A stretch of 64,000 nt of DNA from Carboxydocella thermautotrophica (GTDB taxonomy: Bacteria > Bacillota > GCA-003054495 > Carboxydocellales > Carboxydocellaceae), in contig CP028514.1 of assembly GCA_003054495.1 (NCBI GenBank), forward strand, positions 2,310,001-2,374,000, given 5' to 3'. The notes under the pieces are model-generated. The model ran no database searches. It was not told the DNA's origin and saw only the letters and a list, made by a program, of their open reading frames with translations. Within the stretch, counting starts at the first letter, position 1; the number at the start of each line of letters is the position of its first letter. Both the position numbers and the translations under genes were made by a program. Below, in pieces: positions 24,346-24,543 of the stretch.

Positions 24346-24389
24346 CAAAAAACGGAGTCATTCGCAATTGCTTCGCGAATGACTCCGTT
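24346..24389 (-). terminator. Second attenuator terminator in nifH leader
   Basis: Perfect 15-bp inverted repeat (AACGGAGTCATTCGC / GCGAATGACTCCGTT) with a nine-base loop, followed by TTTTG. It lies 50 bases before the nifH start. Its 5' arm contains the loop and 3' arm of stem-loop 2 of the second ANTAR-type module. Confidence 0.85.
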
Positions 24390-24415
24390 GCCACAGTAGG
24401 CACTTCCCTGCACCC
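24379..24415 (-). promoter_or_regulatory. ANTAR-type antiterminator module 2 in nifH leader
   Basis: Minus-strand RNA: GGGTGC-AGGGAA-GTGCCT (24415-24398, with G-U pairs), a 3-base linker, then GTGGC-AACGGA-GTCAT (24394-24379, with G-U pairs). Both six-base loops have A1 and G4. The second hairpin uses bases of the following terminator, so only one of the two can form. The stems are weaker than in the glnA leader, but the layout is the same. Confidence 0.7.
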
Positions 24416-24434
24416 TATTTTCATTTGTTAATGC

Positions 24435-24471
24435 AAAAAAGGCTTTTCAGAATCCCACCTTCTGAAAAGCC
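24435..24471 (-). terminator. First attenuator terminator in nifH leader
   Basis: Perfect 12-bp inverted repeat (GGCTTTTCAGAA / TTCTGAAAAGCC) with a seven-base loop, followed by six T residues. It lies about 40 bases after the predicted transcription start. It is too far from the upstream methyltransferase-like gene, with the nif promoter in between, to be simply that gene's terminator. Confidence 0.85.
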
Positions 24472-24499
24472 CCATCGCCTTGGAGTACTTCGTCGTACT
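24466..24499 (-). promoter_or_regulatory. ANTAR-type antiterminator module 1 in nifH leader
   Basis: Minus-strand RNA: AGTAC-GACGAA-GTACT (24499-24484), a 2-base linker, then AAGGC-GATGGG-GCTTT (24481-24466). Both loops are six bases with G4, but position 1 is G instead of the usual A. The 3' arm of the second hairpin (GCTTT) is part of the 5' arm of the first terminator. The geometry fits an ANTAR target; the loop deviation lowers confidence. Confidence 0.6.
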
Positions 24500-24514
24500 G
24501 AATTTTACAATGCT

Positions 24515-24543
24515 ATAATACAACAGGTTGTTATTGTTGACAA
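24515..24543 (-). promoter_or_regulatory. nif operon sigma-A promoter
   Basis: TTGTCA (24543-24538), 17-bp spacer, TATTAT (24520-24515). The -35 region TTGTCAACA is the same as that of glnA. No sigma-54-type TGGCAC-N5-TTGCA element was found in the leader, unlike proteobacterial nif promoters. Confidence 0.75.

Follow-up and report, generated by a model that had tools for sequence, protein, structure and literature searches.

The 64-kb window (the whole stretch of DNA analysed) carries a nitrogen-fixation cluster on its minus strand, with nifH as its first gene (Table 1). The collinear genes downstream are nifD, nifK, nifE, a nifN-like gene, two PII-family genes (nifI-like) and nifB, followed by nifX-like, modA, modB, modC-like, nifV-like and glutamate-synthase-like genes; we infer that the whole cluster is cotranscribed. 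The ATG of nifH lies at 24296, and the GTG start at 24413 given in the list of open reading frames is a mechanical extension. Elsewhere in the window lies glnA, with a gene for a REC-ANTAR protein directly upstream of it. A PemK/MazF-type gene and the small gene upstream of it (5279-5913, minus strand) lie by this ANTAR-glnA locus, and an IS605/TnpB-type gene (6038-7270, minus strand) adjoins it.

Table 1. Features of the nif and glnA loci, in window coordinates
Feature	Coordinates	Strand	Remarks
Sigma-A-type promoter, TTGTCA-17-TATTAT	24515..24543	-	upstream of module 1
Module 1 P1, AGTAC-GACGAA-GTACT	24484..24499	-	loop GACGAA
Module 1 P2, AGGC-GATGGG-GCTT	24467..24480	-	loop GATGGG; overlaps terminator 1
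Intrinsic terminator 1 and U tract	24435..24473	-	hairpin 24473-24439; -18.9 kcal/mol
Module 2 P1, GGTGC-AGGGAA-GTGCC	24399..24414	-	loop AGGGAA
Module 2 P2, TGGC-AACGGA-GTCA	24380..24393	-	loop AACGGA; overlaps terminator 2
Intrinsic terminator 2 and U tract	24347..24389	-	hairpin 24389-24351; -27 kcal/mol
nifH	23475..24296	-	first gene of the controlled operon
Rest of collinear cluster, nifD through glutamate-synthase-like genes	9433..23458	-	
Possible internal element, gap between second PII gene and nifB	16968..17004	-	hairpin GGC-AAAGGA-GCC overlapping a terminator
REC-ANTAR protein	4629..5204	-	directly upstream of glnA; candidate regulator
ANTAR module before glnA	4515..4551	-	loops AAAGGG and AATGGC; terminator overlap; strict-motif site 4546
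glnA, type I glutamine synthetase	3095..4435	-	same predicted regulon

Architecture of the nifH leader

Read along the minus strand, the leader consists of the promoter, module 1, module 2 and the nifH ATG. Every part that an initial annotation had described here is present: a sigma-A promoter, two modules, a pair of hairpins with six-nucleotide loops in each, and an overlap between the second hairpin (P2) and a terminator. In both modules P2 shares the 5′ arm of the intrinsic terminator, which makes the two folds mutually exclusive. All four loops have G at position 4, and position 1 is A in both loops of module 2 and G in both loops of module 1.

Taken alone, the P1 and P2 hairpins of both modules are weak (-2.9 to -4.2 kcal/mol each). 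P1 and P2 of module 1 are the minimum-energy structure of the leader's first 50 nt; the 5′ part of module 2 is predicted to prefer an alternative hairpin fold, and its hairpins include G•U pairs, two of them adjacent in P1. The leader as a whole has a folding z of -6.1, a value due mostly to the terminators. Predicted folds also allow pairing between the terminator 1 U tract and the part of module 2 that holds P1 (24438-24399, minus strand), which could reflect coupling of the modules or chance.

A search near nifH for a -24/-12 (sigma-54) site, with up to two mismatches allowed, found none; the genome contains rpoN. The possible element inside the cluster has a P2-like hexaloop, AAAGGA, and scores 14.8 bits with our model, and its P1 is not canonical.

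Specificity within the window and recurrence in other nifH leaders

We scanned for a strict dual-hexaloop motif (purine at position 1, G at position 4, C-G closing pair, terminator not required). Across both strands of the window this motif occurs at three sites, the two nif modules and the module before glnA. Dinucleotide shuffles of the window contain 0.07 sites on average, a figure that is optimistic because the motif was written after relatives had been seen; a held-out covariance model and a loop-blind scan are the cleaner tests. An initial scan for G4 loops, four-pair stems and an overlapping terminator matched only the two nif modules in the window. A looser scan for G4 loops and a terminator added four window sites, but it is too permissive by itself because shuffles yield about four such pairs per 64 kb. 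Shuffling the spacers alone, with the terminators left in place, produced a dual hexaloop with G4 and an overlap with the terminator arm at a rate of 0.2% for either module (for module 2 this is a chance of about 0.002, its position at a terminator being given), and both modules arose together in 0 of 20,000 trials.

To compare leaders, we collected them by NifH from 63 phylum-panel genomes and 80 loci of a contig collection. The strict motif occurs 28 times on the sense strand of 63 kb of nifH leader and three times on the antisense strand; the background, 79 other nif loci, holds 10 sites in 851 kb. To avoid circularity, the loop-blind scan left the loop sequence unconstrained and allowed loop lengths of 4-8 nt. 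Its peak in the nifH leaders is the combination of two 6-nt loops, with 36 sense matches against six antisense. Among these 36, G stands at position 4 in 26 P1 and 28 P2 loops, and position 1 is divided between A and G (13 and 15 in P1, 16 and 14 in P2). Since A and G are about equally frequent there, the G1 loops of module 1 fit the group, and what had been annotated as a departure from the A1/G4 pattern looks like an ordinary variant here; a requirement for A1 looks too strict for these sequences.

Roughly 20 nifH leaders have a clear module, and about two thirds of them (some 14) have two or three, by counts made by hand from tables in which the second module is sometimes weak. Tandem use, which had been thought unusual, is thus the commoner arrangement among module-bearing leaders. 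Most tandem leaders have a terminator after each module, and three modules occur in a Desulfoscipio geothermicus MAG (L026) and in G342 (L104). Second modules in relatives tend to score lower than first ones. In 13 of 20 leaders the 75 nt preceding the first module include a sigma-A-like promoter that matches at 10 or more of 12 positions; in shuffled sequence the rate is 2.75%. Many nifH leaders have no module at all, and the NifH relatives drawn from the contig collection are mostly deltaproteobacteria and other groups in which the motif is absent. Two NifH-like reading frames (L010 and G218:C5:85036-85860), from two genomes of one genus, each contain one in-frame TGA.

A first covariance model was built from 25 modules. 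Both-sided changes occur at five of its nine stem pairs, and 93% of cells pair compared with 83% in column shuffles; as support these figures are weak because the rows had been selected for pairing. The outermost P1 pair, for which pairing was not demanded in the selection, forms in 21 of 24 rows. We then searched the window with a held-out model that excluded sequences of the same genome and the same order. It recovered the glnA module at 30.3 bits (E 1e-5) and nif module 1 at 18.0 bits (E 0.013 per 64 kb), and gave module 2 a score of 10.6 bits (E about 1 per 64 kb). The covariance search proposed for this leader thus supports module 1, and module 2 alone is not significant, so that the case for module 2 rests on its position and terminator overlap rather than on the model. 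Module 1 had been singled out as the deviant one; by model score the weaker of the two is module 2. Of the further model matches in the genome, one at C1:2665795 is weak, and one at C1:1927640 was rejected because it lies antisense inside a carbon-monoxide-dehydrogenase-like gene and has no terminator. No Rfam family reached its gathering score, either across the window or at any of three related loci, and the matches obtained in the leader at a relaxed threshold are chance ones, such as microRNA models that fit the long stem of a terminator.

ANTAR proteins and other predicted targets

The genome encodes two REC-ANTAR proteins, one upstream of glnA and one, at G000 C1:2289123, heading an ANTAR-amtB-glnK operon (amtB and glnK were named by eye from sequence). 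Both have an aromatic residue and a Met aligned with EutV Tyr164 and Met172, which have RNA-contact roles (PMC8934654), and both have Gln at the position of EutV Arg168. The phospho-acceptor Asp is present in the receiver of the amtB-glnK operon protein; in the protein at 4629-5204 it is replaced by Ala, which leaves a receiver that is not open to the usual phosphorylation. The initial annotation had put the latter forward for a binding test on the nif leader. It stands as a candidate, but it is one of two, it lacks the Asp, and the module of glnA, directly downstream, is the more obvious target for it. About a third of the ANTAR proteins in the nifH panel likewise lack the Asp, with E, Q, S, N or A in its place (loci L157-L185, L001, L002, L221 and L223). 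Of the 64 nifH-panel genomes, 62 encode ANTAR proteins, and many of these have a module-free nifH leader; the presence of such proteins therefore discriminates little. In one genome (G121) nifH is preceded, at a distance of two genes, by an ANTAR gene of the same orientation.

Modules are also found in two further nitrogen leaders of this genome. The leader of the ANTAR-amtB-glnK operon has a module and terminator with loops AAGGGC and AATGGC. A second amtB leader has a module with loops GATGGG and GATGAC, both with G at position 1. This second amtB (L216 1023-2308; G000 C1:485522-486807) itself looks decayed, being split into two ORFs with parts missing, and its module and terminator are kept.

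No kinase gene was seen beside either ANTAR gene of this genome. In Geobacter sulfurreducens, the GnfK/GnfR system of Ueki and Lovley in 2010 reportedly controls nif genes through an ANTAR response regulator, which is said to be paired with a histidine kinase and to act with RpoN-dependent promoters. The present locus is similar in that an ANTAR response regulator is predicted to act on nif; unlike GnfK/GnfR, it has no -24/-12 site near nifH and no kinase gene beside the ANTAR genes. AmiR and NasT are controlled by a partner protein, and by analogy partner-protein control of the nitrogen ANTAR proteins is a possibility.

The dual-hexaloop ANTAR RNA was defined by Ramesh et al. 2012 (PMC3369931). 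That paper already predicts such RNAs before nitrogenase genes in Pelobacter carbinolicus and ahead of many nitrogen genes in Desulfotomaculum acetoxidans, where 13 systems fall in six transcription units, which implies more than one system in a unit. The perspective that accompanied it (PMC3369936) names dinitrogen acquisition as a predicted target, along with glutamine synthetase, and PMC8164766 cites an ANTAR link to Geobacter nitrogen genes. The initial annotation knew of no described nif case; in view of these earlier predictions the claim of novelty fails, whereas ANTAR antitermination before nif is itself supported, by comparison only, through its recurrence in nifH leaders and before glnA and amtB. 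Relative to the parts of the literature used, this analysis adds a conserved tandem nif array, a less stringent rule for loop position 1, and the finding that the ANTAR protein at 4629-5204 has no phospho-acceptor Asp. As in the P. carbinolicus and D. acetoxidans predictions, dual hexaloops with overlapping terminators precede nitrogenase genes, and glutamine synthetase, PII and ammonium transporter genes are predicted targets; the organism is different.

The leader also resembles the Enterococcus faecalis eut/EutV system (PMC3369931, PMC8934654) in its two G4 hexaloop hairpins, P2/terminator overlap, short linker, conserved P1 closing pairs (AC...GU) and REC-ANTAR regulator. The eut terminators are spread along the operon, in contrast to the two in one leader seen here. 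In EutV recognition A1 and G4 both matter, and a change of A to U at position 1 lowered induction (PMC3369931); here position 1 is A or G, and one candidate regulator lacks the phospho-acceptor Asp. The G at position 1 in both loops of module 1 is in this respect a point against the attenuator reading.

Probable serial attenuation and its alternatives

From these comparisons, we consider it very probable that the nifH leader comprises two ANTAR-type attenuators in series, antiterminated by a REC-ANTAR protein. An alternative is that the hairpins end transcription of the upstream gene (24558-25601) as ordinary terminators, or act as insulators, with the hexaloops arising by chance and nif controlled elsewhere. 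That gene lies on the same strand and ends at 24558, just before the leader, and terminator-like sites between 22000 and 36000 are no commoner than in shuffles, as this explanation would have it. However, a promoter stands between its stop codon and the terminators, likewise in relatives; dual hexaloops are also seen at terminators in other nifH leaders and ahead of glnA and amtB; and the spacer shuffles put the chance of each module very low. We therefore regard this explanation as very unlikely. Still harder to credit is another form of attenuation, by a riboswitch, a T-box or a leader peptide. A short, 35-codon ATG ORF (24424-24317) does overlap module 2 and its terminator, but it has no evident ribosome-binding site or codon runs, and the Rfam search of the window gave no match at gathering score and nothing relevant at the relaxed threshold.

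A closer variant of the serial arrangement holds that module 1 alone works, module 2 having decayed or serving as a plain terminator with a certain rate of passage by polymerase. The low held-out score of module 2, its adjacent G•U pairs and alternative fold, and the lower scores of second modules in relatives all point this way. Yet both loops of module 2 show A1/G4 and its overlap with the terminator is the correct one, most relatives with a first module keep a second, and a strong terminator left unrelieved would silence nif; we judge this variant unlikely, though it has a real if small chance of being right.

Under serial attenuation by two modules, RNA polymerase would start at the sigma-A-type promoter and meet first terminator 1, then terminator 2, each of which would stop it before nifH if no active REC-ANTAR protein had bound the P1 and P2 hexaloops of the emerging transcript. 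ANTAR binding would keep the P2 hairpin formed; with its 5′ arm thus occupied, the terminator could not form. The nif operon would be transcribed only when both modules are antiterminated, and two serial stops would make the off state tight. Control of glnA and the ANTAR-amtB-glnK operon would fall to the same protein or proteins, forming a nitrogen regulon that would be on when fixed nitrogen is short. The computation itself establishes the leader layout, how specific it is in the window, that it recurs in other nifH leaders, and that the genome has two ANTAR proteins with key residues for RNA contact; termination and read-through, ANTAR binding, the acting protein and the nitrogen signal are what we infer here. 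It is conceivable, if improbable, that the modules are tuned to different ANTAR proteins (module 1 as G1/G4, module 2 as A1/G4) and that the leader is an AND gate with the phosphorylatable receiver of the amtB-glnK operon and the pseudo-receiver of the glnA locus as inputs; if so, the two modules would sense two different inputs for nitrogenase.

With the Asp so often missing, one may ask how nitrogen is sensed by these ANTAR proteins, and the approximately 20 module-bearing leaders provide a panel for testing the serial-attenuator scheme. The arrangement points to a control of nitrogenase in Firmicutes that would operate through serial attenuators, without NifA or sigma-54 at nifH.
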